Positions 14,578-64,000 of a stretch of 64,000 nucleotides of DNA are shown here, in pieces. The position numbers and the translations under genes were made by a program. This stretch comes from Buxus sempervirens (taxonomy: Eukaryota; Streptophyta; Magnoliopsida; Buxales; Buxaceae). Under the pieces are notes generated by a model. That model searched no databases. It saw only the letters and a list, made by a program, of their open reading frames with translations, and was not told the origin of the DNA. Every line of letters begins with the position of its first letter. Positions within the stretch are counted from its first letter, which is position 1. The stretch is from positions 10,100,858-10,164,857 of the forward strand of contig OX387190.1 of assembly GCA_947561395.2 (NCBI GenBank). The letters are read 5' to 3'.

Positions 14578-14660
14578 CTAGCCGGGGTAGAAATAGTCCT
14601 CTGGCCTATATTCGGGATAACCTTCAGCTTCTGCCCCGCTACACGTCTCACTTGCCGGAT
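14578..14660 (-). pseudogene. Copy 1 of the conserved LTR short frame (Tyr/Pro tail)
   Basis: The segment after TTTTGTTTTCAG reads SDP, then GAEAEGYPEYRPEDYFYPG and stop. It is the counterpart of the intact frames at 35716-35859 and 55297-55434. Upstream of this point the in-frame Trp codon seen in the other copies is TGA here. The frame is therefore closed if translated from the shared ATG, but open if the segment is used as a spliced exon. Confidence 0.5.
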
Positions 14661-14954
14661 CTGAAAACAAAACCGATAAATACAAAACTCGCGTGAGACA
14701 ATTGTCTCAGTAAGTAGCATCATGCATGCTAGAAGCAGTTTTATGCAATTTCAAATATAAATAACATGCTCGATTATAACACGATCAAATCTCATCAATT
14801 TCATGCTGAAAATAATTCAAACACAAGGAAGCAGTTCATTTTCAATTAAATCAATATTTCACTATTCAGGATCATACTATTAAACAAATAAAAAGCAGAT
14901 CAATCCAATTTACGAGATAATCACCCTTTACCCTCTAACCAAGATCCAAGGTCT

Positions 14955-16560
14955 AGCGGAGTGCTTCTCTACGCTTCCTGACAAATCAAAATAAGCGGAG
15001 TGCCCTCTACGCGACCTAACAAATCCAGGTTAACGGAGTGCCTCTCTACGCTGCCCGATGAAGCAAGGCTAAGCGGAGTGCCCCTCAACGCTACCTATTT
15101 ATACCAAGTGGAATTCCCTTCCACTTCCCAAATCATACGAAGAACAATTCTATACAAATAAAATAAACTCATACAAATCAATTACTGATAAACAAATTTC
15201 ACAGTTCTGAGCTTCTGGGGTGAATTTAGGTTCACGATCCACAATGCCTCCAAGCACGTGGTAAACTTAGTTCACAATCCCCATAACTCATATTTGTGGT
15301 GGATGGTTCACGATCCCCCTATTAGGGTGAACGACAATCCACGATCCACAAATATCCAGATTTGTGGTGGATGCATGTTCACGATCCCCCGCTAGGGTGA
15401 ACACCAGTTCACGATCCCCAACTGAGGTGAACAGCAATCCCAGTCCACAGATACCCATGACTTGTGGTGGATGCAGGTTCACGATCCCCCGCTAGGGTGA
15501 ACACTAATTCACGATCCCCAGCCGAGGTGAACGGCAATCCCAGTCCACAGAACATTCAACCATAGGCCCTCGGCCCTTTTCGAACTAAAAGGAAGCCTCA
15601 GCTTCAATTTTTCCAATTATATAAATCACCATCGATCAAGACTAATGTTATAGAATTCACAGCACACATTTTCACTCTTGACATCACTGCCATCAACACA
15701 TTTTCTTTCAAATACCCAACATTGGTTGCCAAAACAATAGTGAGCAGTAATTATCCGATTACTAATAGTAATTCCTAACAGTAATTTACCAACGGTGATT
15801 ACTAACAGTGATTTACCAACAATGATTACTAACAGTAATTTACTAATTAATTAACCCAATACTAACAATAATTACTAACAGTAATTACTTTCCTAGTTAC
15901 TAACAACAATTAATCTAAGCGTCTTCTTGCAACCAATTACTAACAGTTATTAACAGCAATTCATTTTCAAGTTACAAATAGCAATTAATCTAGGCATCAT
16001 ATTGCAACCGATTACTAACAATTACTAACAGTTATTAACAGCAATTCATTTTCAAGTTACTAACAGCAATTAATCTAGGCATCATATTACAACCGATTAC
16101 TAACAATTACTAACAGTAATTCATTAAAAGTAATTACTAACAGTGAATTAACCAATTACCAACAGTCCTACCCCAACGGAGTTACCAATTCCTAACAGCA
16201 GTGGAGTTACTAATTCCTAATAGCAATTAACCAATGAAATTACCAATTCCTAATAGCAATTTCCAACATAAATTCCTAACAGCAATGGAGTTGCCAATTC
16301 CTAACAGCAATTCCTAACAGTTACCAATTCCTAACAGCAATGGAGTTACTTATTCCTAATAGCAATTAACCAATGAAATTTCCAATTCCTAACAGCAATT
16401 TCCAACAGAAATTCCTAACAGCAATGGAGTTGCCAATTCCTAACAGTAATTTATAACAGAAATTTCCAACAACAATGAAGTTACCCATTACCAACAGTCC
16501 TACAATCAGTTACTAACAATAAATTTACCAACAATACTTTACTAACAATAATTTACTTAT
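14955..16560. repeat. Three successive minisatellites inside LTR copy 1
   Basis: 14955-15100 has about 40-bp units with 'agcggagtgcc'. 15220-15560 has units built on the palindromic pair GGTTCACGATCCCC...GGGTGAAC. 15725-16560 has degenerate units of 'taacagcaatggagttaccaattcc'. None has a spacer-repeat structure of CRISPR type, and none codes. Confidence 0.75.
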
Positions 16561-18270
16561 TTTGCACAAGACCTTTTGCACCCAGAGACAGACATATGGC
16601 CATCACACATACTTCCCTTAGGCCATGATACCGCAAAGAAAACAATTTAAAAAAAACAGACGGCAAGGACTACGGCTGTCTTTCATCCTATCATCATTCC
16701 TTCATCATGACAATCTTTCTAATAGAAAGAGGTGTTCCTTCAGTAACAGAATCTATATTTGATAACAGTACAGTCTTCCACATACAATTTTGTTATAAAG
16801 AGTGCATAACACAATTTAATTCTGCCACCTAAAATGATAAACAATAACTCCCAACAATAAAATACATGAACCTCATATCATGATCAGGGAGAATGAAGAA
16901 TGGAAAAAAAAACAAAATAACAACAATCACCAAATTCAAAGAAGCTTTACACGAAAGCCAACAACTAGGACTATTCAGTTCTACTGAAGATCCTAAAGTT
17001 CGAGATCTGTGATCAACAAAGAAGAAAACATGTAGAAAGAATAATATCCACTGAATCACGAATTTCTAATGATTATCCAACTATCCGCACATCACATGAG
17101 CTCAAACATAAATATGCGCAGATAAATAAACAAGTCCTGTTCAAATCGATGAAACCCCAAAATTTCGATCAAGCGTCAATTGAACATACAAGCGACAAAA
17201 AGGCAACGCATACTAATTTAAATCAAACCTAACCATTTTCAACATTTTAAAATCCCATATCAAATTTCAAAACGAGGAAACAGCGAATGAAAACGAAAAC
17301 GCTACTTACATGGAATCGTCGAATCCACCGCTCAGAACAGAAACAGAAATAACCAAAATTGATTTTTCTACTAAGTTGGTCGAACCCTCATGCCTACTCG
17401 CAGGTTCAAATCATACTCACAAACCAAAACCAAAAACAAGGATTGGGCGTTTTTTTTTTTTACAAACAGAAATCAATCAGGAGCAATCAAACCCACAATA
17501 ATAAATTAGGACAGAAATCGTTCGAACCCAACAGTAATTGCTCGAACAACAGAAATAATAAACATAGCAATAAATCGATTATACAGCGAAACGAAAACAT
17601 GCTACTTACCTAGTTTCGCAGAATCCCACGCCCAAAACCCTCGTTTTCTCCCCTGTTCTGACAGCCCTTGAAGAACGCCCCTTGCTTCCCTCTTTCTCCT
17701 TTCTTCTTCTCCTTTTTCTTCTTCTTCTTTCTTCTTTCTCCTCTGCGGCTAACCCCCAACGAACTCCCCCTTCTTTTCTTCTTCTCTCTTCTCTTCCTCT
17801 CTTCTCTTCTTCTTTCCTCTCCACGATTTCTTCCTCTTTTCGTTTTTCCTCAAACCCTTAACAACGACCAGCATGGACGAACCCCTCCCCTCTTTCTTCT
17901 CTTCCTCTTTTCTTATTATTCTTCTTCTTCTTCCTTCATCCCCCTTCTTTCTTCTGCGTTTTTTTTTCGTTTTCTTGGTTTTTCTAACCCTTAACAACCC
18001 AAACACCAAAATCATCCCCAAATGCACAAATCGTCAAACCCCTTTTTTTTTTTTTTTTTTTTTTCTTTTGGTCTAAACCATTAAACCGATGGAACCCTTG
18101 AACCATTGAACCATTGATCAATTGGTCCGGTTCAATTAAACTAGACCAACAATTAAACTTACCCAACCTAATAAGTCATTAGTTTAATTGATTATTCTTA
18201 CTTAATTTATTTAATTAATTAGCCTTAATTAAAGTTTTATTTTTTCCAAATTCCGGGGTTTTACAACCTC

Positions 18271-24912: not shown

Positions 24913-25429
24913 GTCCTAAACAAGGTTTATAGTGAAAAATCGATTTGCATCGGCTAGCGGCACGTTTCGCTAGCCGAATGCCGTTAATTAAAATCGACAC
25001 GAAGTGCCACAGAGTTTCGAAGAAACGCATCAAAATTTCAATGCGTTTCGTCAAAACGGTTTTTTTTTTTTTTACTTTTTTTGTCGCGTGCACGAAACCT
25101 TCAACTTAAGTCGTCGACTTGGGCGAAATTTTCGCCCAAATCGATGAGATTTCGACATAAACGAAGGGCTTTGGGGTTTTTTGCGATTTCTTCCTTAAAT
25201 CTTCATCATTTTTTGTGAAATCTGTCCCAAACATCATCTTTTCTCAAGATCTTGGTTCTAGAAGCAAGCTAGGCACGATTTGGAGTTGAATTGGAGGTCA
25301 TACGACATTCGTGCTCGATCCTAAAGAAGATAAACATCTATTTCTTCTATTTTATAGGCTTAAACGTATTAGATTAAGCTGAAATTAAGATATGTTATGC
25401 ATCGGCACCCGATCTATCGATGGGTGTTG

Positions 25430-25900
25430 TTACCTATAATTTTTATTTTCAAAATTAATTTTTTTAATTATTTGTGACGAAAATTAATTAAAAATAGGGA
25501 AAATATACAAAAATGCAAAAAATTATGTTATAAATTAGTAAAATTACTATGAATGCCATGTATAATTATCTATAATTATTTGTATGAAAATAATTTTTTC
25601 TAATTATTTGTCACGAAAATTAATTAAAAATAGGGAAAATATAAAAAAATACAAAATCATGTTATAAATTAATAAAAATTACTGTAAATGCCATGTATAA
25701 TTATCTATAATTATTTGTATGAAAATTAATTTTTTTAATTATTTGTCACGAAAATTAATTATAAATAGGGAAAACTATACAAAAAATCATGTTATAACTA
25801 AAAATTACTATGAATTCCATGTATGCTTATCTATAATTATTTGTACGAAAATTATTTTTTTAATTATTTATCACGAAAATTAATTATTAATTTGTTTTGT
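25430..25900. repeat. Tandem repeat of about 130 bp in the hAT 5' region
   Basis: There are three to four copies of a unit that includes 'tctataattatttgta', 'cacgaaaattaatta' and 'tgaatgccatgtata'. It lies between the hAT left end and the first coding exon, probably in an intron or leader. Confidence 0.75.
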
Positions 25901-26015
25901 ATTGTATTTGTATCTAACATTATAAGTTTGTTTTGTAACTAAATTGTTGTTGGTATTTTATTTGTTTGTTGTGCAGGTGATTGTTGATTTTTGATTGTTA
26001 CTGTATTGATCTAGT

Positions 26016-27066
26016 ATGGCTTCTGGTTCTGGCACTGACAGTGGACCAACAGGGTCGTAGGCAGGTAGATATTGGCTGGAGGCATTGTAAGAAAGTGGAT
26101 GAGGACAGAAATAAAACGAAATGCAATTATTGTAGCCAGCAATTTAAGGGTTGTGAGATTTCACGCTTGAAGCAACACCTAGCACATGGCTACAGGAACG
26201 TAATCAACTGTCCAAGAGTACCCCCAGAAGTAAAAAAACAAATGCAAGAACATCTACATGTAAGGACGACTGGCTGGCAAGAGAAAAGGGCCATAGAGCA
26301 TGAGATCAGACGCATGCTTGGGGAGCCTGCACGACCACCTGCTAGAGGTGAGGATTCAGATGATGACATTGTCTACCCCGCTGATATGGTGACTGAGGCA
26401 AAGAGGGCCGCATTTCGAGCCAGTGTTCGAGAGTCTTTACAAGATGAGTACAAGAGGAGGAAGAGCCACAGATTGGGATTGGAAAGGGGTGGTTACTCTA
26501 AAGGTAATCATGGTACTCATGGTCGAGGTTCAAGGCATAGGGCTGAGCTTGAGTTAGGGCGGACACAGAGTACGAGGATGCCGGACTACTCTACAAAGCC
26601 CCAGTTATATCGTTCTTCTAGATCGAGACAAAAGAGACTTAAGGATGTTTGGAGCAAGGGATCACTGAAGGAGAGAATGGGAAAATACATATCGAAGGTT
26701 TTCATCTTTAATCACATCCCAGCAAATGCAGCAGCATCTCCCCACTTCCAGAACATGGTAGACACTATTCAGGAGGCGGGTCCAGGAGTGCAGCCGCCTA
26801 CACCCCGTGACATTATGGGCAGATATCTGGATGAGTAGCAGGAGATGAGAGATTTTATTGCATCCCTACGACCTCATTGGGAGCAGTTCGGGGTGACTAT
26901 TATGTATGATGGTTGGACAAGTCCTACTAGACTGTCCATCATCAACTTCATGGTATACTGTAAAGGGAAGGCGGTGTTCTTGAAGTCAGTAGGCGCATCA
27001 GATAAAATAAAAGAGGCAGACTATATAGCATGGCTACTTGAGGGGATCATAGCTGATGTTGGTGCG
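26016..27066 (+). pseudogene. hAT transposase-like gene, 5' part (BED finger and DUF659)
   Basis: The natural start is probably the ATG at 26016 (MASGSGTD), after an acceptor at about 25977. A frameshift or stop at about 26057 separates it from the main frame. The main frame carries a BED-type zinc finger (CNYCSQQF, then HLA and C residues; about 26120-26220) and a linker with an acidic patch. A TAG at 26836-26838 interrupts DEYLDE|QEMRDF-like sequence. After it comes the DUF659 start FGVTIMYDGWTSPTRLSIIN. The gene is cut at 27066 by the CACTA element within 'IADVGA'. In life it would bind and cut hAT ends in the nucleus. Here it is dead. Confidence 0.85.
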
Positions 27067-33368: not shown

Positions 33369-34949
33369 ACAAAACACTATCTGAACCCCAAGTATCACTA
33401 CAAGCACCAGCTTGGCACGAATCCTGAGCTGTGTAGCACAGTACATCAAGTATTTATAAAGTTGGATCCTAATTCGGATGCGGCTGGCCGGTTTGGAAAT
33501 GAGGTACGATTAGGAATAGGATGCTTGTTAAATATAAGTCGTCATTGTAATGACAATTTATTAAATAATAAACACTAACATTTAAGTTTGGTTTCCCAGT
33601 TAATAATGTTTGGAGATGCTTTTGGGTCATTCAGATCGACCACGGCGATTGCATCGAGAGACATGATGATGTCATGTAAGTAACTTCATAACAAATAATG
33701 TCATTAACCTTTATAAACTTCTATTTTGATATTTTTTGATAAACTATTATTGTTTTTTCTGATCACAGGTGAGTAGTGGGCGATGTACAGGTACGATGCG
33801 CCTACTTTGCACAAGTTGGCAACTAGGATCCTAGCTCAGGCGGCGTCTTCTTCTACGTGTGAGCGGAATTGGAGCACATTTGCTCTTATTCATACGAAGC
33901 AGAGGAACAAATTGACGTACGCGAGATTGCAGAAGCTCGTATTTTGTCACTACAATATGAGGCTACGGACGAAGCAGCTAGAGATTAAGCATCGTACTAC
34001 GCCCATCAAAGATCCTCTAAAGGTGTTATTCAGCAACAATATTGACAAAGAGGATCCATTTTCAGAGTGGGTTAGATGTACTTCCGAGATGGATGAGCCA
34101 GATGGTGGACCTAGCCCAGTCATCGCCCGTGCAGCTACAAATATGAGCATAGATGTCGATGCTGTCATGGAGGAAGAGAGGTAGGAGGATAGCGGAGACT
34201 CATTCGATCGACTGCTTAGGGTTGTTCCCCCCTCAGTTTCAGCCGCACCATCACGAGAAGTCCCAGCCCTTATCTCATCCTCACGAACACATGATGATGA
34301 TGATAGTGATGAATCAAATGACGACGACGATGATGATGATGCCCAGGGCGATGTTGCTGGCAGTAGTGCCTCAGGTTTAAGTACGTTCACTAGGGAGGCG
34401 AGATACGATCATGCCACGCAGGACCGAGACCATGGGGTCAGGAGGAACACCGATACGAGTACGACACCGACACAGACATTTCAGAGGAGGGACAAAGGAA
34501 AGCAACATACCAGTGTGCACGACAACGAGTCCTCTATAGCTCAAAGTTTTGGATCACTGGATGTTGGATCCAATTCATCTTATAAGAACCACTATCCACA
34601 TCAGGACCACGAACATTACGGCTCATATTATTATCCTCAACAGCCTGGCCTAGCAGAATCGTCAGGCACCGATAGCTATGGGCCATATGGATATCCTAAC
34701 TTACAGCATATGCAACCCACTAATCCTTTTGGGATATTTCCAATAAACCCATATCCATATGGATACTATGCCGCACCGGGTGAAGTGACGCCCATTGGAT
34801 ACGGTGTTGTTGCTTATCCTCCACCACCACTGGCACCGTTTCAACCAGAGTCAGATGCAGAGGCAAACAGCTTGTGCAGTTATTATCCTGAGTTCCCTCC
34901 TATTGGTATTATTGAACACATGTCTCAGGAGCAATATGAATCCATGTAA
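33369..34949 (+). pseudogene. hAT transposase-like gene, C-terminal exons with dimerisation domain and Tyr/Pro/Gly-rich tail
   Basis: The exons are about 33369-33505 (LNPKYHYKHQLGTNPEL to AAGRFGNE), 33598-33675 (MFGDAFGSFRSTTAIASRD) and 33769-34949. The last opens with a TAG where Trp is usual (E-stop-WAMYRYDAP). It then carries the hAT C-terminal dimerisation motif (SSSTCERNWSTFALIHTKQR, then NKLTYARLQKLVFCHYN). After a further TAG at 34182-34184 the same frame stays open. It has a Ser/Asp-rich stretch (DDDDSDESNDDDDDDD) and then about 140 residues rich in Tyr, Pro and Gly, ending QEQYESM. The original protein probably continued past 34949 and across the LTR insertion to about 40150, where LNL/PPMFQSGR-like sequence remains. 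Confidence 0.85.
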
Positions 34950-34996
34950 GGTTATTCAAGAAAGAGTACATGTATCGAATGTCATAGAAGCGCTTT

Positions 34997-35352: not shown

Positions 35353-35715
35353 GTAGCGCCCCAGATCCAGGTCTGCCCTATCACGACACCAACCCGTCCC
35401 CGAGACCTTCTTATGGACCCAATAGAACCTAATAAACACAATTACCTGGGCAATTACAATGTAATTATCAAAGTGCATAAGCAGTAAGAAGCATGGAATA
35501 AAAATTTCCATATAACAAAAAATCATCTGTGTAATAACCCCACAAGATATGATATCTGAGGATACAAAAGAGCAACTAAGATGCTCACTATCTCTCTTTC
35601 TTATATAAACAGACATATACAAAATCAACTCCCAAGAGTATAAGTCCAAAAGAATATTTATATCCCATTTATAGTTTCCAAAAACTAAATACAATAACAC
35701 ACAAAGAGAACCCTA

Positions 35716-35859
35716 CTATGGGTAATAGTAATCCTCTGGCATGTACTCAAGCTCACCCTCAATATCTGCCCCGGTACGTGGCTCACCAAGCGGATCTGAA
35801 AACAAATCCAGTAAAACAAAACACGTGTGAGACTTAAAGTCCCAGTAAGCAGCAAACAT
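35716..35859 (-). CDS. Conserved LTR short frame, 47 residues (possible microprotein or terminal exon)
   Basis: ATG at 35859 opens MFAAYWDFKSHTCFVLLDLF, continues SDPLGEPRTGADIEGELEY and ends MPEDYYYP before TAG. The C-terminal half is acidic and Tyr/Pro-rich. It has counterparts at the same place in copies 1, 3 and 4. Compared with copy 4, most differences after SDP are at third codon positions and the stop is conserved (TAG/TAA). A TTTTGTTTTCAG tract immediately before GATCCG could be a splice acceptor, with the donor at 37960 upstream. The coding part might then begin only at the GAT. I recognise no family. Function is unknown and translation is unproven. Confidence 0.45.
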   Translation of the reverse strand: MFAAYWDFKSHTCFVLLDLFSDPLGEPRTGADIEGELEYMPEDYYYP

Positions 35860-36116
35860 GCATGTAGAGAAACAGTTTATGCAGTTTTATAACATCATGA
35901 TAACGTACTCAAAGATAAGTACCAAATGTAAACCAAAACAATTCAATCGGATACAAATGTAATTCCAAGTCAAATATCTTAATCGGACAACACATGAAAT
36001 CAAAATCATAGATACAATGAAATGCTGCTAGTATGTCTTGGTAGGACTCGTAGGTTAGCGTGTCTCTAAATTAGATTAATGACCATTGTCCAAGAACAAT
36101 CAAACCAAAGATCAAA

Positions 36117-36612
36117 GCCAAGCGGAGTACCTCTACACTGCCCGATGAATCAAGGCCAAGCAGAGCGTCTCTACACTGCCCGATGAATCAAGGCCAAGCG
36201 GAGTATCTCTACACTGCCCGATGAATCGAGGCCAAGCGGAGTGTCTCTACACTGCCCGATGGATCACAATAGATGGACAAGGACATTAAGGCTAACAAGC
36301 CAACACCAACGCACGAACTAGACTCACTGTGGATCCACACTAAGAACGTCCAATTAAACGGCTCAAAACTCACACCAAACCATTCAAATTAGTGAGTAAA
36401 ACTAGTGTTCAAACCAAGGCCAAGCGGAGTGCCTCTACACTGCTCGATGAATCAAGGCCAAGCGGAGTGTCTCTCTACACTGCCTGATGAATCAAGGCCA
36501 AGCGGAGTGTCTCTTTGCACTGCCTGATGAATCAAGGCCAAGCGGAGTCTCTCTACAGTCTACACTGCCTGATGAATCAAGGCCAAGCGGAGGGCCCCTC
36601 TACACTGCCTGT
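36117..36612. repeat. 38-bp minisatellite in LTR copy 2
   Basis: About nine units of 'aatcaaggccaagcggagtg' followed by 'tctctacactgcccgatg' occur in two clusters (36117-36262 and 36412-36612). They are separated by unique DNA. Related units occur in copy 1 at 14955-15100. Confidence 0.88.
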
Positions 36613-38118
36613 TCATAACACATGCCAAGTGGAATTCCTCATCCACCGCCAATAAAACCATAGGCCATGAGCCTTGTCAAATCATATATATAAGAGTTTT
36701 TCAATATCACTTTCATAAATCAAAATCAACCAAAACGAATCTCATAAAATCCTCAAAACAATTTTGGATGAGTGGGATAGTCTTAGGAATCCCAAATAAG
36801 TCATCATACCAAAAATCAATGGATTCCGAGACAAAAAGTTTTGACCTCAAAAATATTCTAAGTCTAGTTAAAAACGTTGACTTTTGGGGTATATGATTTT
36901 TCTAAACAAATCTACGATGAGTTTCAGGCTCAATTTCTGGTTGTAGTCTAATGAAGGGTAGACAAATTTTTTGGAATTTTATGGGCTTCTGAATCACTCA
37001 TTTGGGTATCAAACTCAAAAAGTGGTTTTTGGTGAAAATTGGGCTAATCTGGAAATTTAGGCATGAACTGGAAGGTTGACTTTTTATTGATTAGGAAGTG
37101 GGCCTTGGGAGTATTTTTAATTGTTCCAAATGGGGGGTAAAACCTTATTTACATATAAAAGCTTAAGTAAATTGAGCAATAAATACACAGGTTATTTACT
37201 TAAGTGTCTTTCATATAATAAGGGTGCTGTGTAGGAAGCTTAGGTTATTTGGGAAAGGGTTGGGGAAGAAAAGGATAAAGAACTGTAAAAAATAGGGTCC
37301 ACGATTAGCTTCTGGATTAATCGCCCAAGGGCGATTAGCCCTGACGTTCGGGCGTTAAGGTGAAAAACAAGTCAACGTTCGGGGTGTTAAGGTGAAAATT
37401 AGGGCTGACGTTCAGCCGTTAAACCTATTCCTAATGGACGTTCACGCATCCAAGCTCTCGATTAATCATCCAGGCTAATCCTGATTCACGATTAGGATAA
37501 CAGAGATGGATTTTTGGGGGTTTTGACTCAGGATTAATCGCCAATTTTCAGGATTAATCGCCAGGTTAGGTTTTCAAATATTTTTGGCTATTTTCAACAC
37601 AAAACTCATACAAGTCACTCCTAACCTAACACCAAATGGGATGATCATAAATCATCCCAACACACTTAAAAACACTTTCCAAAACAAAGATTCATCACAA
37701 ACCCACATGAACACAAATCTAACACATGAAACCTCATTCAAAACACAAAACTCAAACCAAAATCTGAAATATGATCAATTTAGGTTGCAAAACCATAGCA
37801 AATCAATAGAAAACAAAACAAGTGTGTTATACAACCAAAACCTACGAGTTTTAGAAGCAACTACCACCATACAAGATCATTTCTTCAAAATAAATCAAAC
37901 CCTAAAGAGAGAGTACAAATTTTTGTAATACATTCGGTTTTGAAGGGTTTACTACTTACCTGTTTAATAGAGAAACACAACTTCTCTTCAAACTCTCCTC
38001 TTCTCCTTCTTCTCCTTCTTCTTGAAGCTTTCAAGCAAGCTCCCACTCTTCTCCTTGTTCTATAAGTCCAAAACAAGAAAAAGGGTTCTCAAAACACTAG
38101 ATATTTTAGTTAGGGCAT

Positions 38119-38130
38119 CCTTTTATATGC
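38119..38130 (-). promoter_or_regulatory. TATA box of LTR copy 2
   Basis: The minus strand reads GCATATAAAAGGATGCC, identical to the TATA region of copy 3 at 53174. A leader of about 160 bp leads to the donor-like GTAAGTAGT. Confidence 0.6.
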
Positions 38131-38189
38131 CCAATTTTTGGTCTTTTAAATCTGTCCCTAAACAAAGCTTTTATTCAACTAAAACCCTA

Positions 38190-39600: not shown

Positions 39601-40571
39601 GCCCAAATTGGTATTTATTGAGGATTCAAGAATGATCTAGAAGTATTGCAATTTGCGTTTGGGCTCAAAACAAGAAATCTGAAAATTTTGTATTGAACGC
39701 GCAAACGTTAAAGTTGGACGTTCAGGAGTTGAGACTTTATTAAAGGATTTCTACAAGATTTAATTCAACACGCGATTAAGGCGCGATTCAAGGTTCACAC
39801 GTTAAGGCAAATTTTACACTTAACTCAAATTTTTCAAAATTTGATTTACAATTCACTAGAACTAATTAGAGGGTACCTTGGCTAATTGAAATTGAGACAT
39901 AACATTAACTAAGCTTACCTTAATAACCTTCAATAAAGTTTAATTGATTTCCCCCAAATCCTCAAATATAATCCACATTTACCTCATCTTTATAACACAA
40001 GTACTTAATTAATCTAATAATCACACTTTAGATAATTAAGCTTAATAATTAAGATATAATCGAGGTCGGGGTTTTACAGCTTTTGCCACTACACTAGGGA
40101 ACAGGAAGGGTTTGAACCTCCTATGTTCCAGTCGGGACGTCACTCGTTCCATTTTTTATGGTATGATTATTGTACGAATTGAATGATATGTTTATTATTG
40201 TTTGCACTTTGCACTTTGCATCATTATTAGTTGTCCACTTGTCAGTTCAGTTGCTTGCAATGCATGATATTAGTATACTATTAAGTATTATCATTAATTT
40301 ACTGATTATTTGCACATGTGCTTATGTTATCCATGTATTATAAACTTCTAATCATTTTATTTATCAATAATATTTTATTTTTAGCCATAAATAAACAAAA
40401 AAATTGATTTCAGTCAAAATTTCATTGGCACGCCGATGCATGCCGCGAAATTTCGACCGAAAGTGCCCCTTTGCCATTTTTCCCCCGTTTTGTCGATTTT
40501 TCGTCGGCATGCCGATTTTTTCGAGGAACGGCATGCCCAACGACATCGATATTGAAAACCTTGGTCCTAAA

Positions 40572-41805: not shown

Positions 41806-43190
41806 AACGTTACATGTGCTATGAACCAAAAGAGGGGTTCTCAAAAGAAAGGATTTTCAGCTTCTTCTAAAGCTTACAAAAGACTTTCATCGGAATTTGG
41901 GCTTCTGAAAACCTTCAGACAATTAGACTAAGAAACCTTTAAATGCTCGACTCTATATCACCCCAAACCCAGAAAACAAAAAGTATAAAAACGACAAAAC
42001 AATTGATTCCACTAAAAAATAAAAAATAAAAATAGGCACAAACGCAATGTAAATAGGAAAGTAAATAGGAGAGGAATAATGGGAATAATGAAGAAGCTAA
42101 CAAGATCAAAATGAAGAAGGCAATGGAGTGTTGAGGTTCATTAAGCTACCACAACGAAAAGAAATTCTCCAAGCCCCTCACTTTTTGCCACAGAGATATC
42201 CCTACTGAGCTCTCACCCAATGCTCCAACCCCCTTCCTCTTGCTCTCTGTTCAACTTCGACAAAGCACCGGTATGAAAAACAATACCTCAATTGTAGACG
42301 GCTCATGGATTTTAAACGCGATCCACAATGACTGAATAAATTTAGAACTATCAAATTTGGCTTAATAGAACAGATGAATAATGTTATATTCAAATCATCG
42401 AAACAATGGTTTATATAAGTAGTAATCGATATTAAATTTGGCAAATCATGCATGCATATACTAGTGCAATCGAATCATAAAAAAAGCAAAACAATGTCAT
42501 TTTTAGCACATCTGACTAGGAAACAAGATTGCTCAACTTTTACCCCATCCAACCTAACAAAATACGAACGATTTCTATGGTGCATCCTGCATGCCATCAA
42601 AACTATTGGATTCCGCACAGCACATATAGTGTGCCATTTAGAGTTCTTCAAAAAATAGAAAAACATCCCAACATATAGAGAGGAGGAGATGACAGGAGAC
42701 ATCGGAGGAAGGAGGTGTACTGGTCTTTTGCTCCACTTCTCTTTATATACGAAAAAATCAAATAGGAGTGTCACAAAGGTAGGAGGGAGGAAAGAGTGGG
42801 GGGGAAAAGGAGAAGGGTGAAGAGTATTTAATTCTAGGTAAATATATTAGGTATCATTTGGTAACACTTTTCAAAAGTGCTTTTTTACTTTTGAAAGCAA
42901 AAAATTGCTTTCGAAAGCAAAAATGCTGTTTGGTTATGCACACATGAAGCAATTTATAAGAAGCAAAAAAGCAATTTCATTGCTTTTCAAAAGAAGCATA
43001 GAAATGTTGCTTCTCACTTTAACCATAATTTTACTTTCTTGCTTTTCAAAAAAAACAATTTCATTGCTTTTCAAAAATTTGAGCCATCATTTCCAATCCA
43101 ACCCGAATAAACGGGATCGGGTTGACCCATGTAATAGTTGGGTCGACTTCAAGTTAGGGATTTAGTAACCCATTCGTATTCGGGTCAACT
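41806..43190. other. Repeat-derived DNA, no gene recognised
   Basis: Short frames here (for example minus 42202-42453) have no recognised domain. 42850-43090 is AAGCAAAA-rich and begins with TCATTTGGTAACAC, a MITE-like edge. Confidence 0.4.
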
Positions 43191-43194
43191 CGAA

Positions 43195-43405
43195 TCTAGC
43201 CCGATAATGATCTGTTTAACCCGATAATGACATGTTTAACACGATAATGACCCGTTTAATCCGATAATGACCCGCTTAACCCGACAATGATACGTTCAAC
43301 CCGATAATGACCCGTTTAACACGATAATGGCCCGTTTAACCTGATAATGATCCGTTTAACCCGATAATGACCCTCTTAACCCAATAATGATCCGTTTAAC
43401 CCTTA
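43195..43405. repeat. Minisatellite of 16-18 bp
   Basis: About a dozen copies of 'acccgataatgacccgttta' with small changes. Confidence 0.9.
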
Positions 43406-45965
43406 CCTACTAATATTATATAAGAAAAAGCCTTAATGTTAAAAAAAATGAAGGAGAAATCTGAGGTTTTCTAACTCTTAACAAAATAGTAATCATCGGA
43501 ATCCACAAATCAATTGTCATTTTACTATGCGTAAGAAAGTACAAGAGCTAAAGGAACATGAAAACAAAATAGATCTCAAAAGAGTTGCCAAATTTCAATG
43601 ACCATAGGAGCACATGACTATTTAGATCACAATTGAGAGAACAAAAAAGTTGGGGGGGCCAATTTTTTGGGAAAAGAACAAAAAACCTAGGACCCCAACG
43701 TGCTTTAAGGCACATATCTATACTTACAAGTAGTATTTAACAATGAAAGATACCTCATCAGACATATTTTATGAGGGTAGTTTTAGAGAAAAAACTAAGT
43801 AGAAACCACACTTAAAATGATCTCTTCTTTGTTAGTCAATATGGAATCCTAAAGATAACCTTTAGATGAAGTAATTGAATGACAAAACTGAGGCCATATT
43901 CTGTGTTTTTTTTTTTAATTGTGTTATACTCAATTAAAAAAGAAGTCATTTCAATCGAATTTTCCATGACCAATAAGAGAAGAAATCTGAAACAAACAAC
44001 ATTCCAAAAACACCTAAGCAAGAGTGTTCTAAACGAATGTGAAAGCAAATCTGAAACAATTTCACATTCCAATGTGAAGGCTGAACTTAAAACTCAATCT
44101 GAAATCTGAACACTCATAATGTCAAAGAAAATCTGAAACAAACAACATTCCAAAAAATTCTTCAAAAACTTAAGTCTTTTCATCAGTTTGTCGGAAGGAA
44201 TATAACAAAAGACCTGCAACAGCTATAGTGTTTCAAAATTGGGGAACTAGTAGATCCAGGTGCTTATATCTTTACCCAACTAAACTAAGCCAAGTTATCA
44301 GCTCACAGACGGTAGCCAATACAGAGGTAAAGCTAACATCTCTTCAATCTATGACATCAAAATCTATCATCATATCCAACATCAAAATCTATCATCATAG
44401 CATTCATCTTAAAATTATTACAACCATATCTTGAAAAATCCAAACTAACATCTTCATTAAAATGCAAAACAAACCAAAAATAATAATAATAATAACAGCT
44501 AGAATTCCAGGGTCATAAATTCCAAATGTTTCATTAGCTTAGGATGATAATTTGCCTTGAGAAATTATGAGGGAACTACTTGACAAGGGAGAAATTCTGT
44601 GCGAGAAGCTTGCTGATTCTGAACATTGTGGACTGTGGTGTATAGAAGATTCTCTAGAGACATGGCCATGATGCTGTAGAATGTTATAAGGAGCAACGAA
44701 ACAAGGTTTCCCGCTTCCAAATGTCGCAAGCATACCATTTCTATCACTTTTACAAAGAATCTCCCACAATGATTCTATTTTTCTCTTCATTAAGGAATTA
44801 AAATTGGGAATTCCTTACTTGACATTGTAGAAACACACACACACATACACAAATCAAAGGACACAACTACCCTCCACATTATGCCTTTATAAGTGTGTGC
44901 TAAGAAATCTATATATTCATTCAGGAATTCAATTATTTTCCTCCTATTACTTGAAGGATAGCATAGATCTAGTTATAGCATTTGGACATGGCCTTAGAAG
45001 AGGAAACCAATTGTTCGCTTTCTACACTAGCCACTATTGCTGAATTGCTGCTCAGATGTGCTTTCCCTTTCATTATCATTTTGATTTTCTTTGTCCCTCT
45101 GTCCAACTCGTCTTGCTCCTCATTTGGAATTCTGCAGTCCCTCTTCTTCCCTTCCTTACATATTCTTTTTAGACTTCGATTAGATAGGAATAAAGATTAG
45201 CATTCATCTTAAAATTATTACAACCATATATTGATAGATCCAAAATATCATTTCAAATAACATGCAAAACAAACCAAAAAAATCAACAATACCAAGAAGT
45301 CCAAGGTGCAGTATTGAGAAACCAAGACACAATTGTAAATTGGATACAAATAAGAAAAGATAATAAAAGAATGCTTATACTGTTTAATAGCCTGAAATGA
45401 CATATATGAGTATGAAATCACACTCCAACAAAATAATCTGCTTCATTGTTAAAATTACAAACCGCAACACTGACTAAACGGCCCATCCGCACATCCAACA
45501 AACCATCCCCAAAATAACCCAGATCCTTCTTTATCACAGAAAATTTCCAGAAAAAAAAATCAAAATCTACAACCCCTTTGCCTTATTATGGACCAAATGG
45601 CTATAAAACAAGCCTAAATTCTAATCTGATCTCATTATAAAAGAAAACAACTAAAGATCACCGCACAGGCTGAGTTAAATCGAAACGAACATTTCAAGAA
45701 AAAAGAAAAAGAACATAGAGGTTGAAATCTACAACATTTACAATACATACATTTAGGAAAAGCCTAGCCAGAAAAGATAACAATTCCAGAGACTATAAAC
45801 AGAACACATTTAAAAAAAATTGCCAGATAAACACCGGGCAAAACACATCGATTACAAAGAATAAAAAACCTAACCCCAAGAACAAGGGGATAATTAAAAC
45901 AAAAACATACCTGAATCCTTGCCAATACTTTCCCCAAAGAATAGTTGAGAAGTAGACTGGTTCGT
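43406..45965. other. AT-rich DNA with an 85-bp direct repeat pair, no gene recognised
   Basis: 44398-44485 and 45199-45285 share a block starting 'agcattcatcttaaaattat' and ending near 'atgcaaaacaaaccaaaaa', about 800 bp apart. The intervening frames (minus 44539-44790, plus 44982-45200) match no family I know. Confidence 0.5.
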
Positions 45966-45984
45966 GCTAGAAGACTTCGTAGAG

Positions 45985-49879: not shown

Positions 49880-49882
49880 TAA

Positions 49883-50449: not shown

Positions 50450-50452
50450 TAA

Positions 50453-51785: not shown

Positions 51786-51994
51786 GCAGGTGTAAAACCC
51801 CGACCCGGATTATACCTTAATTATTAAGTTTAATTACTTAAAGTGTGATTATTAGGCTAATTAAGTACTTGTGTTATGAAGGTGAGGTGGATGTGGATCA
51901 TGCTTAAGGATTTGGGGGAAATCAAATTGATCTCCATTGAAGGTTATTAAGGTAAGCTTAGTTAATGTTATGTTCTCAATTTCGATTGGCTAAG

Positions 51995-53125
51995 GTACCC
52001 TCCAAAAAGTCCAAGTGTACCTAAAGTACTTTCAGAATATACCCAAGTGCACCCCAAATTATCCCCTAAGAGTACCTAGAGTAACTCTTAAGAATACCCA
52101 AGGTACCTCTCAAGTGTACCTTAAGTGTCTCCCAAGAATACCCAAGATACCTCACTTCTATACTTAAGGTACCCCCAAGTATTACCCAAAGTACCCCAAA
52201 GTATTACCCAAAGTACACTTAAGTATTGCCTAAGGTACCCCCAATGTGTGCCCAAAGTACACCCAAGTATTACCCAAAATACCCCAAAGTATTACCCAAA
52301 GTACACTTAAGTATTACCTAACAATGTGTGCCCAAAGTACACCCAAGTATTATCCAAGGTACCCCTTCTACCAAAAAAAAAAATTATCCAAGGTACCCCC
52401 AATGTATGCCTAAAGTACACCCAAGGATTGCCTAAGGTACCCCTGTGTTGATCTAAGGTATCCCCTTGTGATTGCCTAAGGTACCCCTATGTTTACCTAA
52501 AGTATCCCCTTGTGATTGCCTAAGGTACCCCTATGTTTACCTAAAGTATCCCCTTGTGTTTGCCTAAGGAACCCCACATGTATACCTAAAGTACTCCCTT
52601 ATATTACCTAAGGCATCTCACTCATATTGGCTAAGGTACCACACTGTATTGCCTAAGGTATTCCTTTATTTCAACTAAGGTACCCTACTGTTTTACTTAA
52701 AATATCCCCTTGTTTACCTAAGGTACATTCCTTTATATAGCTAGGATACCCCCTTTGTATACCTAGAGTACCCCCTTATATTACTAAGGTACATCCCTCA
52801 CATTACCTAGGGTACACCCTTGTATTTCCTAGAGGTACTTCTCTCATATAAGTAAGGTAACCCCCCACTGTTTTGCCTAAGGTATAACCCCTTCTACAGC
52901 TAAGGTACCCTCTCAATAACACTAAGGTACTCCCACTTCACACTAAGGTATCCCATCTTGTATAACTAAAGTACCCCCAAGCATCCCTAGAGTATGCCTT
53001 TTGAAATAGCTAAGGAAAAACCCCTTAAAACACCTGAGTACCCCTGCAAATAACACTAAGGTACCCTCTACTTATCACAAGGTACACCCATACTTAACAC
53101 TAAGGTACCCCCTAGGGTTTTAGTT
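51995..53125. repeat. GGTACC/GTATAC satellite in LTR copy 3
   Basis: About 1.1 kb of degenerate units such as 'tacccaaagtacacccaagt' and 'tgcctaaggtacccctatgt'. It is the reverse-complement equivalent of the copy 2 satellite and lies upstream of the TATA box in both copies. Confidence 0.85.
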
Positions 53126-53173
53126 GAATAAAAGCCTTGTTTAGGGGCGGATTTGAAAGACCCAACACTTAGG

Positions 53174-53183
53174 CATATAAAAG
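53174..53183 (+). promoter_or_regulatory. TATA box of LTR copy 3
   Basis: CATATAAAAG within GGCATATAAAAGGATGCCC, the same 19 bases as in copy 2. The donor-like site is about 150 bp downstream. Confidence 0.65.
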
Positions 53184-55296
53184 GATGCCCTAACTTCTAA
53201 TTAAGTGTTTGAAAACCCATTTCTCTTGCCTTGGATGTATAGAACAAGAAGAAGAGTTGGAGCTCACTTGAAAAGCTTGAAGGAGAAGAAGAAAAGGGCT
53301 TGAAGAGAAGTTTTGCTTCTCCATTAACAAGTAAGTAGCAAACCCTTCAAAAAAAAATGAATTACAAAATTCGTATTCTCTCTCTAGGGTTTGATTGATT
53401 TTGAAGAAATGATCTTGCATGTTGGTAATTGCTTCTAAAACTTGTAGGTTTTGATTTATAACACTCTTGGTTTGTTTTCCATTGATTATTATGTGTTTGC
53501 AACCTAGAGTAATCATGCTCCAGATTTTGGTATGAGTTTTGTGGTTAGAATGAGGGTTCATGTGTTAATTTGTGTTCTTGTGGATTTGGGATGATGTATG
53601 ATCATCAAATTTGGTGTTCGAAAGGTAATGGATGAATTGTAGGAGTTTTCATGTTGAAAATAGCCAAAAATATTTCAAACCCCGACCTGGCGTTTAATCC
53701 TAAAGATTGGCGATTAATCGTGAGTGAAAACCCCAAAAAAATGAGTTTCTGTTAAGTCAGGATTAACTCCACGATCAAACATTAGCGCGCGCGCGTCGAC
53801 CTTGTTTTAAACCTAGGCGCGCGCACTTTAAACCTCAATGCCCAAACCTTGAACCTCAACGTCCGCGCGCTAAAGCTAATCGCCCCTGGGCGATTAATCC
53901 AGGGACTAATTGTGGACCTGTTTTTGACTATTCTTCACCCTTTTTCTCCTCAACCCTTTCCCAAACAACCCAAGCTTCTCACATAGCACCCTTATTACAT
54001 GAAAGATGACATTTAAGTAAATGTCTTGTATATTTATTGCTCCATTTACTTAAGTCTTTACATGTAAATAAGGTTTACCCCCATTTGGAACCAATAAAAA
54101 TACTTCCAAGGCCCAATTCCCAACCAATAAAAAGTCAACTTTTCAGTTTGTGCCTATATTGCCAATTTTCCCGATTTTCAAAAATGGCCACTTTTTGAGT
54201 TTGATATCCAAATGAGTGATTTAAAAGCCCAGAAAATTCTAGATGATTTGTATACCCTCCAATAGACTACAACCAGAATTTGAGCCCCAAACTCCTTGTA
54301 GATTTGTTTAGAAAAATTCGACACCGAAAAGTCAACGTTTTCAACTAGACTTGGAATATTTTTTAGGTCCAAAACTTTTTGTCTCGGAATCCATTGAATT
54401 TTGGTATGGTGACTTATTTGGGATTTTTAAGATCAACCCACTCATCGAAAATGCGTTTTGAGGATTTTATGACCTTCGTTTTGATTGGCTTGGATTTATG
54501 AAAACGATGTTGAAAAACCCTTATATGACTTGACAAGACTTTTGGCTTATTGTTTTACTAGCGGTGGATAGGGAATTCCACTTGGCCTCGATTGATGTGA
54601 TAGTGGATGGGGAATTCCACTTGGCTTATGTCGTGATTTGGCGGTGGATGGGGTATTCCACTAAGCCTCGGTTGATTTGATAGTGGATGGGGAATTCCAC
54701 TTGGCTTTGGTTTAAGCACTGGTTTTACTCACGGAATTGAATGGTTTGTTTTGATTTATGAGTCGTCTAATTGCACATTATTCTTAGTGTGGATCCACAG
54801 CGAGTCTAGTAGTGTGCTGGTGTTGGCTTGTTAGCGTTAATTTTCCTTGTCCATGTAGCTTTCCACTGTGGGGAATCAGTGAGGCCCTCTCAGGGAACAA
54901 AGGTGCTACGGCAACCACCCGTAATAGGGAACCGGCGGGAGTTCTTATGATTCCTATGGTTTGGTTCAGCAATGGATGGGGCATTCCACTTAGCCTTGAT
55001 TATTACTTTGGTTGTCACTTGCCAACCCATACGTAGGTGTTCCGCTTGCTGAGATGTCCCTAGCTAGGCTTCTCTCTGTAAGTCGTGTAGGTGGCAAATG
55101 GACAGTGGACATTAACCTAATTTAAAGACACGCCAACTCACGAGTCCTAACAAGACATACTTGCAGTATTTGATTGTAATTGCCGAATTGATTTCATATA
55201 TTATTCGATTGAGATGCTTTGACTTGAGATTTACATTTTATATTTGTGAATGTGATCATGATGTTATAAAACTGCATAAACTGTTTCTATCCATGC

Positions 55297-55434
55297 ATGT
55301 TTGCTGCTTACTGGGACTTTAAGTCTCACGCGTGTTTTGTTTTACCGGATTTGTTTTCAAATCCTCATGGTGAGCCACGCATAAAGGGAGATCCAGACTA
55401 TAGACCCGAGGACTATTGCTACTACCCACAATAG
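55297..55434 (+). CDS. Conserved LTR short frame, 45 residues (possible microprotein or terminal exon)
   Basis: ATG at 55297 opens MFAAYWDFKSHACFVLPDLF, then SNPHGEPRIKGDPDY and ends RPEDYCYYPQ before TAG. It is collinear with the 47-residue frame of copy 2, with the same first ten residues and the same P-E-D-Y ending. The possible splice acceptor of copies 1 and 2 (TTTTCAG) reads TTTTCAA here, so in this copy only direct translation from the ATG would use the whole frame. No known family matches. It is unusual for an LTR to keep a frame of this kind. Confidence 0.45.
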   Translation: MFAAYWDFKSHACFVLPDLFSNPHGEPRIKGDPDYRPEDYCYYPQ

Positions 55435-55802
55435 GACTCTCTTTATGATATTGTATTTTGTTAGTGAGTTGGAAATGGGATGTAAATAATACTTTTGGAT
55501 TTATACTCTTGGGAGTTACCTTTTGTATATGTCTGTATATTTGAGAAAGAGCTTGTGAGCAATTAGATGCCTTAGATGTATTTTGTATACGCACAGATAT
55601 CATGTTTTGGAGATTGTAATACAAGATTTTTGTTGGATGGAAAATTTTTAATTCCATGCTTCTTTAGCTTATGCACTCTGATAATTACATTGTAATTGCC
55701 TAGGCAATTGTGTTTATCAGGTTCTATTGGGCCCATAAGTAGGTCTCGGGGACTGGTCGGTGCTGTGATAGGGCAGACCCGGATTTGGGGCGCTACAGCA
55801 GG

Positions 55803-57424: not shown

Positions 57425-57635
57425 AGACACTAGTCATGGTAAAAAAAAAAGACGTCAAATAACCTATTTTAGTATTGGAAAGAGCCGTGTTGTCCATTGA
57501 AGCTCTGTACAGCATTAGCCATGAAGGATTGGAGGACTTTACGCCATTCATTTGCTCAGAAGACCCATGAATCTCCACAACACATTCTAAACCACCAGCT
57601 TGAGGATCTTGCAGCTTCACCCTGGCTCTAGATAT
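57425..57635 (-). pseudogene. KH-domain RNA-binding protein, last-exon fragment
   Basis: After an acceptor at 57636-57638 (TTACCAG) the minus strand reads SRARVKLQDPQAGGLECVVE, then IHGSSEQMNG. This is the second half of a KH domain as found at the C-terminus of HEN4/RCF3-like plant proteins. The following bases in another frame read VLQSFMANAVQSFNGQHG, the family's final helix and tail, so one frameshift separates the halves. Only one exon is present, with intron sequence upstream. It is a genomic fragment of a gene, not a retrocopy. Confidence 0.75.
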
Positions 57636-57956
57636 CTGGTAATTACAAAGAAATCACGTTCATTTGCAACTTGGAAAGGAGTTTTAGTAACTCCTTGATT
57701 AAAAGTTGTTAAAGTTTTCATAGTAATGAACAGAGATAATTGGGATCGGGGGCGTTCTATTCAAAACTCGATAAAACTACTATGGTGGGCGTTCTTTTGA
57801 TTAGAACTTGTTAAAGCTACAATGGCATTTCACGTGACCTTCTTGTCTTGTCAACCCAAATTCACTTAATTTGATGGGCACTCAGATTTTCTAAAACTTA
57901 CAAACACGATATGATCAGTCCAGAACATTCACCAGGTAAGAGACCCTCAGGATTCA

Positions 57957-60792: not shown

Positions 60793-60797
60793 ATTCA

Positions 60798-62172: not shown

Positions 62173-62261
62173 TGTTGAGGTATCGTGTTTGGGCCATTTG
62201 ATATACATATTTACACCTTCACTTATCAGCTTAAGCTTTTAGGTGCAATGGTTCTTTAACA
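62173..62261 (+). mobile_element. 89-bp copia/TRIM-type LTR
   Basis: TGTTGAGGTATCG to GGTTCTTTAACA, with TG...CA ends, a purine run (aggagag) just before and a primer-site match just after. It is closely similar to the LTRs of the TRIM array at 41163-41805. Confidence 0.65.
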
Positions 62262-62273
62262 TAGTATCAAAGT
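62262..62273 (+). other. Primer binding site, tRNA-iMet type (degenerate)
   Basis: TAGTATCAAAGT compares with TGGTATCAGAGC, the usual plant copia primer site, immediately after the LTR end. Confidence 0.55.
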
Positions 62274-62544
62274 TAAGTTTCAGTACTACTATTATCTCTA
62301 TATCAAAAAGAATTTCTAATGAGGTTCTAGTCTTGAATTCTTGATATGTGATGTGGTGATTTTCGTGGTTCTCCCTTGGGATTTTTTTGTGCGATTTTGT
62401 CTCTATTCTGACGGTTTTAGTTGTGGTAATTTTTTAAGTTCATTCTTGGACTTTTTGGTGAGTTTTTATCATACTCTTGCGTTGTGGATTTTGTTTCTAT
62501 TGGTTTTCGATTCTATGATCTCTTGATTCTGTTAGTATCATCAT

Positions 62545-63431
62545 GTCGGTCAAAAAATCTAAGAATTTGTGTGACAATTTCATGGGTTAGAACTATGCTT
62601 GGGAATTTCAATTCCAATTGTTTCTCAAGGGCAAAGATTCATGGGGCCACATACGGTTCTAAGGTAGTTCCTAATGAACCTGATAAGCTTGCCTGATGGA
62701 AGGTGATGGATGCTCGAACTATGAGTTGGTTTTTGTGTTCGGTTGAGCCTCGTTGCAGCTAAGGAAGTATGGAAAGACTTAAAAAGAGTATATAATCATG
62801 AAAACAATGCAAGACGATGTCAATTGGAGTTAGAAATTGCCACTAATGCTCAGGGAAGCCATTCAATTTAGGATTATTACTCAATTATTGATGAAGCTAC
62901 ATCCTGATTTTGAGACTATTAGGTCATATTTGATGAGTCGTGATCCACCTCCATCTCTAGATCTTTGTTTGGGGAAATCAAAGACCAATCAATCAGGCTG
63001 CCATGGAACAATAGAAACTACTGATAACTCGTTTAATGTAGCCTAAGGCAAATCAAATGGCCAAGACATGCATACTGTGCAGTGTTACAGTTGCAAGGAA
63101 TATGAACAAATTGATGCCAATTATCAAAGGAAATCCTGCAACTACTATCAAAAGCTTAGTCACATTATGGCGACATGCTCCATTCGTCCACAAAATCATC
63201 ACACAGGTGCCTATCGTGCCTTGGTTTCTTCCACTCCTGTGATAGAACAGCCTACCTTTTCAATTGTTCCATGCATCCATGTCTTCTTCAGATGCTTCTA
63301 GTGTATTCACTTTCGAGATAGTGCAGTAAATGATTGTCTCTGTTTTTTTAGTCATAGATCTTCAAGGTAACCATACTACTTCATCTCAATCTTGGTTTGT
63401 TGATCTGAAGCTTCTAATCACAAGTCTAGGT
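62545..63431 (+). pseudogene. Ty1/copia gag-protease remnant
   Basis: Scattered frames keep the order of a plant copia gag. WEFQFQLFLKGKDSWGH is near 62610. LHPDFETIRSYLMSRDPPPS, then LDLCLG (UBN2-type gag), is near 62900. A zinc-knuckle-like stretch (CYSCKEY, CNYYQKLSHIMATC) spans 63080-63190. A protease active-site-like block near 63390-63420 is broken by an indel. Many stops and frameshifts are present. The copy is cut at 63432 by the long LTR insertion, and integrase and reverse transcriptase are not in the window. The LTR, primer site and gag distances fit one element starting at 62173. Confidence 0.75.
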
Positions 63432-64000
63432 TGTAGAGCCCCAAAACCGGGTCTACCCATACAGGATACCAACCTGTCCCTGAGCTCTACTTATGGGCCC
63501 AATAGAACTAAATTGATACAATGAAGGGCAATTACAATGTAATCATTAGAGTGCATAATAGCGTAAGAAGCATGGACTAAAAGTTTTCATTTGACAAAAG
63601 GTCACCTGTATAATAATCTCCAAAAATATGATATTTGTATGTATACAAAAGACAACTAAGTGCTCACAATCTCTCTCTTATATGAACAAATATATACAAA
63701 AGTCATAGTCCAAAAGTAAGCTTCCAAATGTATAAGACCAAAAAGAATCATTTACATATCCTATTTATAGTTCCCAAAACTAAATACAACACCATAAGAA
63801 GAACCGTATTATGGGTGGTAGTAATCCTTGGGTTTATACTCAAGCTCACCTTCAATCTCTGCCCCAGTACGAGGCTCACCAAGAGGATTTGAAAGCAAAA
63901 CAGGTAAAACAAAACTTGCATGAGACGAAAGTCCCAGTAAGCAGCAAACATGCATAACTAGAAGCAATTTATGCAATTTTGCAACGACATGACAACATTC
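63432..64000 (-). mobile_element. Long LTR family, copy 4 (3' end only, runs off window)
   Basis: On the minus strand the end reads ACCCGGTTTTGGGGCTCTACA at 63432. The DNA inward matches copies 2 and 3: GTTCTATTGGGCCCATAAGT, the 'cttcttacgctattatgcac' region, the short-frame counterpart at 63809-63888 and GCATGTTTGCTGCTTACTGG. The 5-bp candidate duplication on this side is taggt (63427-63431). The other end lies beyond 64000. Confidence 0.75.
63809..63888 (-). pseudogene. Copy 4 of the conserved LTR short frame
   Basis: It reads NPLGEPRTGAEIEGELEY, then KPKDYYHP and TAA. Upstream, the MFAAYWDF start is present, but a one-base deletion breaks the frame between them. Only the C-terminal part keeps the shared frame. 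Confidence 0.5.

Follow-up and report, generated by a model that had tools for sequence, protein, structure and literature searches.

LTR copies in the window

The window, i.e. the whole stretch of DNA analyzed here, comprises 64,000 nucleotides of contig OX387190.1 of Buxus sempervirens (positions 10,100,858 to 10,164,857). It carries four copies of a retrotransposon long terminal repeat (LTR) with a short reading frame in each copy. The original prediction had located these four frames inside long LTRs, and all of them were found at the coordinates given below. The comparison of many genomic copies indicates that this frame is very probably the terminal coding exon of gag-pol of a chromovirus-like Ty3/gypsy element. 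It would lie inside the 3′ LTR, would be joined to the end of pol by a predicted splice over U3 and would add a tail of 24–27 residues. The following features were assigned (a slash marks the predicted exon border; UTR, untranslated region).

14216–18265, minus strand: copy 1, a solo LTR with the ends TGTAAAACCCCGG...GGGGTGCTATA and the target duplication GAGGT flanking both sides
14578–14660, minus strand: coding part of the putative terminal exon of copy 1; acceptor TTTTGTTTTCAG/AT, 27 codons of which the first is split at the splice site, stop codon TAG
35353–40078, minus strand: copy 2, an LTR without clear target duplication
35716–35795, minus strand: coding part of the putative terminal exon of copy 2; 26 codons, stop codon TAG
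35796–35861, minus strand: acceptor side of the predicted intron in copy 2; 66 nt with the 3′ end TTTTGTTTTCAG, conserved between groups without an excess of third-position changes
37954–37959, minus strand: R donor GTAAGT of copy 2; with the same acceptor it would form a predicted 5′-UTR intron if copy 2 is a 5′ LTR, and it is not a coding partner
38119–38129, minus strand: TATA box CATATAAAAGG of copy 2, a probable promoter with the start of R just downstream
51791–55797, plus strand: copy 3, a solo LTR with the target duplication GCAGG flanking both sides
53174–53184, plus strand: TATA box of copy 3
53331–53336, plus strand: R donor GTAAGT of copy 3
55361–55434, plus strand: coding part of the putative terminal exon of copy 3; 24 codons, stop codon TAG, CAA at the acceptor
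63432–64000, minus strand: copy 4, the 3′ part of an LTR that is cut by the end of the window
63809–63888, minus strand: coding part of the putative terminal exon of copy 4; 26 codons, stop codon TAA, CAA at the acceptor

The encoded peptides are DPASETCSGAEAEGYPEYRPEDYFYPG (copy 1), DPLGEPRTGADIEGELEYMPEDYYYP (copy 2), NPHGEPRIKGDPDYRPEDYCYYPQ (copy 3) and NPLGEPRTGAEIEGELEYKPKDYYHP (copy 4), each followed by the stop codon. As described previously, a shared ATG opens the frame in copies 2 and 3 (MFAAYWDFKS), a stop codon lies upstream in copy 1, and the upstream part of copy 4 is out of frame. At the site of CAG in copies 1 and 2, copies 3 and 4 carry CAA. Between copies 2 and 4, 14 of 81 bases are different, ten of them at third codon positions (first codon and stop counted), and the stop position is the same with a different codon, TAG in copy 2 and TAA in copy 4.

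Collection of genomic copies

Further copies were collected from the source genome by searches with copies 1 to 4, the flank of copy 2 and the additional copy L158, each of which scored the best 40 of 1403–2261 candidates. From each set of 40, the number retrieved was 28 for copy 2, 30 for the copy 2 flank, 30 for copy 3, 20 each for copies 1 and 4, and 12 besides itself for L158. L028, whose acceptor was unaligned, was left out, and L182 stands outside the counts. Of the 142 copy records, which include window copies 1 and 4, 13 were identical to others over approximately 160 nt (seven from the same place, six from other places) and were removed, which left 129 distinct copies. These were grouped by search origin into A (copy 2), A4 (copy 4), B (copy 3), C (copy 1) and D (L158). 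Group A4 lies close to group A, and part of its members aligned best to copy 2. The tree and the divergence tests included 128 of the 129 distinct copies and all five groups. The LTRs diverge between groups: the matches listed for copy 1 versus copy 2 consist of tandem repeats and the exon region.

At 68 loci with long flanks (L001–L068; six places occur twice) the LTR end was mostly located where expected, and a strict end motif was present in 50 of the 68. The majority of the sampled copies are apparently solo LTRs or 3′ LTRs, because the DNA beyond the LTR end mostly differs from copy to copy (it is shared in some pairs, e.g., L006/L068, L020/L023 and L034/L050) and a primer-binding site (PBS) directly after the end occurs only in L049. 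In this locus the PBS TGGTATCAGAGC, which we take to be of the initiator Met tRNA type, lies 4 nt past the LTR end and is followed by gag. In L031 a second LTR-end-like motif followed by the PBS-like sequence TGGTATCAGA was observed 330 nt past the LTR end (approximately 2167–2180, oriented), perhaps from another element. The paired copies C1:25307827/25322329 were considered as an intact element and rejected; judged by eye, the stretch is duplicated and a copia-like element is nested in it.

Codon-level selection in the putative exon

In 119 of the 129 copies the first in-frame stop is located at codon 24–27 after the acceptor; it occurs earlier in nine copies and later in one. The +2 frame meets a stop within four codons in 118 of 129 copies. 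Many copies have a long +1 frame as well, so the open frame alone is weak evidence. Examples of the encoded tails from other loci are DPPGEPRIEGDPDYRPEDYYYYPQ (L040), DPASETRSGAEAEGYPEYRPEDYFYPG (L074), DPLGEPRTGADIGGELEYRPEDYYHP (L113) and DPVGEPRIGADLQGDPKYRPEDYFHPM (L159). Group D keeps the exon despite a different LTR start in L158, the one LTR of this group that is visible from its start.

The acceptor triplet was CAG in 91 copies, CAA in 19, TAG in 11, CAT in three, TAA in two, CGG in two and CTG in one, so that AG is kept in 102 of 129 copies. The two bases AT directly after the acceptor required no change on the tree. CAA had been taken as an argument for translation from the upstream ATG. 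This argument did not hold, since CAA and TAG are single transitions from CAG, as expected where a methylated CAG decays after insertion.

For the detection of selection we calculated the net divergence between groups (between minus within) on a frame-blind alignment and obtained P values by permutation of columns. This test was adopted because a count of changes on all branches gave no signal over the whole exon, as is expected if most changes are neutral and occurred after insertion. The net divergence of the exon at codon positions 1/2/3 was 0.126/0.122/0.308 (P = 0.0007, with columns taken as exchangeable and, as for all these P values, resting on five partly related groups). Precisely from the acceptor to the stop codon, third positions thus diverge 2.5 times as much between groups as the others. 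The second half of the exon gave P = 0.00085, and when one group at a time was left out the exon P values ranged from 0.0004 to 0.0039. The 66 nt upstream of the acceptor are more conserved and their third positions are the least divergent ones (0.113/0.108/0.026, P = 0.975); the downstream flank showed 0.286/0.222/0.278 (P = 0.38). Conserved DNA with the opposite codon pattern directly before the acceptor is as expected of an intron end. On the tree, changes on all branches in the second half of the exon were also biased toward third positions (4.69/4.46/7.85 per site).

The ratio of nonsynonymous to synonymous substitution rates (dN/dS) was determined pairwise for the 119 intact copies, here on a codon alignment built on the protein in the exon frame. 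It amounted to 0.12–0.47 between groups (two pairs saturated) and to 0.32–1.09 within groups; between groups the shifted frames yielded 0.58–1.35 (+1) and 0.42–1.80 (+2). With random real copies and a codon bootstrap, the corresponding ratio of proportions (pN/pS) between groups had a median of 0.37 with a 95% range of 0.22–0.63, and none of 400 replicates reached 1 or more. The divergence by codon position and the dN/dS values support the earlier claim of protein-level selection before the copies died. According to these sequence comparisons, the target of selection was a protein segment with its start at the acceptor and not a microprotein starting at the ATG, because the codon signal runs from acceptor to stop and is absent from both flanks.

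The end of pol and its putative donor

A candidate upstream partner of the exon was found at the end of pol. In L134 the frame of integrase and chromodomain reaches AAG/GTAAAA approximately 40 bp before the 3′ LTR. It ends with MRKKYPSLFEEPQ, followed by G/GTAAAATTTCGAGGACGAAATTT, a stop codon, GAGGGTAGAA and the start of the LTR. The phase of this donor matches the exon: the final G together with the AT after the acceptor gives an Asp codon. L134 contains pol end and exon in one stretch, with a predicted intron of approximately 3.6 kb.

Twenty further pol ends were retrieved from 40 hits, among which was L134, giving 21 in all. All but L154 have GT at the donor, and all but L142 have G as the preceding base (20 of 21 in each case). 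Several of these pol ends are dead, with stops or frame shifts further up. Up to the donor a codon signal was observed (0.147/0.180/0.334; reached by 0 of 20,000 permutations), which is still visible over the final 60 nt (P = 0.010), and after the donor there was none (0.131/0.110/0.111, P = 0.59). These figures come from 20 of the 21 pol ends, L150 being too short, and include relatedness between copies. The unspliced reading after the donor is GKISRTKF in most pol ends and GKNFEDK or GKNFEDE in L138, L147 and L153. These differing readings show that DNA and not a peptide is conserved there. The sequence GTAAAATTTCGAGGACGAAATTT after the donor (L134 3672–3719, minus strand; L136–L155) contains an inverted repeat that adjoins the polypurine tract (PPT). 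A predicted fold over the donor had z = −4.49 in one stretch and was not significant in another (z = −0.58). It is a speculative possibility that the well conserved GTAAAATTTCGAGGACGAAATTT masks the donor by folding and thereby controls the ratio of spliced to unspliced RNA.

Places on the same strand suggest more pairs of pol end and exon, namely L136/L042, L140/L027 (stop in pol, acceptor CAA) and L154/L182 (donor lost, exon open). L135 was rejected as a pol end; its integrase frame ends early and it has no match to LTRs 2 and 3. A scan of IMG/VR with the C-terminus of pol gave two pattern matches and no relative.

Type of element and neighboring features

Copies 1 and 3 have the TG...CA/TA ends and the 5-bp target duplications (GAGGT and GCAGG) of an LTR retrotransposon. 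The domain order of Ty3/gypsy elements was found in two pieces from two elements. L132 matched the Pfam families Retrotrans_gag, RVP_2 and RVT_1 above the cut-off; L134 matched the integrase SH3 domain above and rve below the cut-off, with the 3′ LTR next. For Chromo (PF00385), L134 gave a sub-threshold match with E = 0.00022 and 21.5 bits, below the cut-off of 25.1, at the expected place at the C-terminus of integrase. The best reading of these sequence features is an abundant plant Ty3/gypsy retrotransposon of the chromovirus-like type. It may belong to the Tekay (Del) clade. L132/L133 downstream of the 5′ LTR L049 was rejected as an intact element; by eye, it is broken after the reverse transcriptase and runs into an NBS-LRR-like gene.

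In U3 of copies 2 and 3 (38256–39061, 51985–52978) tandem repeats of 22/44 nt resembling GGTACCTTAGGTATAC are densely packed. Repeats of approximately 38 nt of the AAGGCCAAGCGGAGTGTCTCTACACTGCCTGATGAATC type lie in the LTR upstream of the exon (36111–36609, 14934–15124) and are common to copies 1 and 2. Apart from the LTRs, the window contains open reading frames with a BED zinc finger and a hAT dimerization domain at 25981–26838 and 33777–34184, remnants of hAT-like transposases of which the second is near copy 2. An AT-rich repeat of approximately 130 nt occurs four times directly upstream of the BED finger reading frame (25404–25900). Part of a host gene near copy 1 (12566–13117, minus strand) matches the GCD14 tRNA methyltransferase subunit (E = 2.9e-43), and a 20-nt tandem repeat, TAACCCGATAATGACCCGTT, with approximately 12 units extends from 43177 to 43416.

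Alternative explanations

The conserved DNA could be a non-coding signal only, serving as the acceptor of a 5′-UTR intron or in another cis role, with the frame as a by-product. Between groups the acceptor side has indeed diverged less than exon and downstream flank, and the R donor is recurrent, but a third-position excess from acceptor to stop is not predicted by this explanation and neither is a donor of matching phase at the end of pol. We consider it improbable.

The original prediction offered two models, a microprotein and a terminal exon spliced from a donor near the TATA box. A microprotein of 45–47 residues starting at the ATG of copies 2 and 3 would account for the good conservation upstream of the acceptor and for the in-frame ATG that is open as far as the acceptor in 96 of 129 copies. 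It is nevertheless quite unlikely, as the upstream DNA carries no coding signature and 33 of the 129 copies, with every one of the five groups represented, have a broken ATG frame or none; the exon frame is intact in 32 of these 33.

The second model can be read as a separate small gene in which the terminal exon is joined to the R donor. The donor GTAAGT downstream of the TATA box is real and recurrent: it was found in copies 2 and 3 and in L134. Of 11 more genomic stretches, all obtained by searching with copy 3, eight contain it, and the remaining three, judged by eye, do not include that part of the LTR. Its splicing is plausible for a 5′-UTR intron. As a coding junction, however, neither 37960/35795 nor 53330/55361 could be upheld. 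The R-donor exon, taken from 32 nt past the TATA box, contained in-frame stops in all three LTRs checked, with no in-frame ATG between them and the acceptor; copy 2 and L134 have no ATG in this exon and the one in copy 3 is out of frame. Because of these stops without a later in-frame ATG, the R-donor exon can, judging from its sequence, be only a 5′-UTR exon, and a small gene of this kind is highly unlikely. The terminal exon of the second model is thus supported and its upstream coding exon is not.

That chance alone preserved the frame in young, not yet decayed copies would agree with the within-group dN/dS values and the long +1 frames, but can be given hardly any credit since net divergence between groups removes the similarity within groups and still gave P = 0.0007.

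Several observations weigh against the terminal gag-pol exon. Raw identity between copies 2 and 4 is no higher in the exon (67/81) than in the flanks (upstream 62 of 72 aligned positions with four gap columns, downstream 65 of 69 with 12 gap columns). Equal conservation of the flanks had been named beforehand as speaking against selection; it does occur at the level of raw identity, and it is the codon-phase test between groups that separates the exon from its flanks. Changes on all branches of the tree show no codon-position bias over the whole exon (6.85/6.04/7.0 per site), and the net divergence signal is weak in its first half (P = 0.097). A shift to the +2 frame does not always give a clearly higher dN/dS: for A versus A4 the value goes from 0.47 to 0.48, and 0.42–0.57 was obtained in five comparisons made in the +2 frame. 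The predicted intron ends without AG in 27 of 129 copies. Unspliced pol has its own stop 10–27 codons past the donor, so that the protein could terminate without the tail. Of three 3′ flanks of other pol ends searched for the exon, L158 contains it in frame-shifted form, L156 loses the LTR after approximately 440 bp, and L157 matches none of the LTRs compared. A terminal position of the exon would also require a poly(A) site further downstream. Finally, the LTR and pol-end searches together covered the best 40 of 1403–2406 candidates each, of which a part was retrieved, from one genome.

Predicted expression of the element

For a terminal gag-pol exon in the 3′ LTR the following course is proposed. 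Transcription would start in the 5′ LTR just past the TATA box and would have to continue across most of the 3′ LTR. The frame of integrase and chromodomain would end approximately 40 bp ahead of the 3′ LTR at the donor, typically AAG/GTRAAAT, and the splice would skip the PPT, the whole U3 and the start of R to reach the acceptor TTTTGTTTTCAG/AT in R/U5 of the 3′ LTR. The 24–27 codons added there, which end with EYRPEDYYYP or similar before the stop, would form an acidic, Tyr-rich tail. Since the two LTRs are identical at birth, the exon would be passed on to every LTR, solo LTRs included. Within the 5′ LTR, the R donor is the probable partner of this acceptor, and the two would delimit a 5′-UTR intron. 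Unspliced RNA would serve as the genome, and spliced RNA, which would lack PPT and U3, for translation only. The C-termini of other integrases can steer integration, and by analogy the tail perhaps steers the chromodomain integrase.

More tentatively, and with somewhat less than even confidence, we suggest that one LTR acceptor is used twice, for the 5′-UTR intron in the 5′ LTR and for the last gag-pol exon in the 3′ LTR. It would thereby sort RNA into a replicable genome and an uncopyable messenger, with a conserved integrase targeting tail hidden in the LTR. Such a dual-acceptor design may be general in the lineage and may have been missed, as annotation stops pol before the LTR.

Comparison with known systems and significance

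Proteins coded partly in the 3′ LTR include nef of human immunodeficiency virus, sag of mouse mammary tumor virus and bel of foamy viruses. These likewise use the 3′ LTR for coding, but are separate accessory proteins of animal retroviruses and not the tail of an integrase polyprotein. Other examples are the CRM clade chromoviruses and Bingo1–4 and Bingo7 of Beta vulgaris, for which the consulted part of PMC3605345 reports that the C-terminal part of gag-pol is coded inside the 3′ LTR. The CRM and Bingo frame runs on into the LTR, whereas a continuous frame of this type across the LTR border was not found in L134. The gag-pol frame of L134 terminates 10 bp short of the LTR, and the predicted splice would continue it several kb within the LTR. 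Most of the other 20 pol ends also stop before the LTR; in L153 the unspliced frame continues past the border.

According to the consulted part of a 2025 review (PMC12786077), introns are generally lacking in plant LTR retrotransposons, Ogre and EVADE being named as notable exceptions. As predicted for the element described here, RNA splicing serves protein expression in Ogre, EVADE and BARE1 (consulted parts of PMC6317226 and PMC12786077). In EVADE, as those parts have it, splicing removes a protease part, unlike the tail addition predicted here, and no LTR exon is described there for any of the three. Titles and abstract openings of the literature, with subscription journals mostly outside the scope, yielded no spliced LTR exon in a plant chromovirus, and neither did term searches of PMC11963269 and PMC3059260.

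If the proposed exon is correct, U3 would lie within an intron of gag-pol in an abundant plant retrotransposon, whose integrase would carry a conserved tail that is lost when annotation halts at the LTR. Part of a protein would then be coded where DNA is normally treated as non-coding. Each LTR copy with an intact acceptor would offer a short exon with a stop codon, by which transcripts of the host could be trapped. The question would also arise how such elements divide their RNA between translation and copying. Chromodomains of seed-plant chromoviruses lack the usual histone-binding cage, as stated in the consulted part of PMC6317226, and the tail would open the question with what partner they work.

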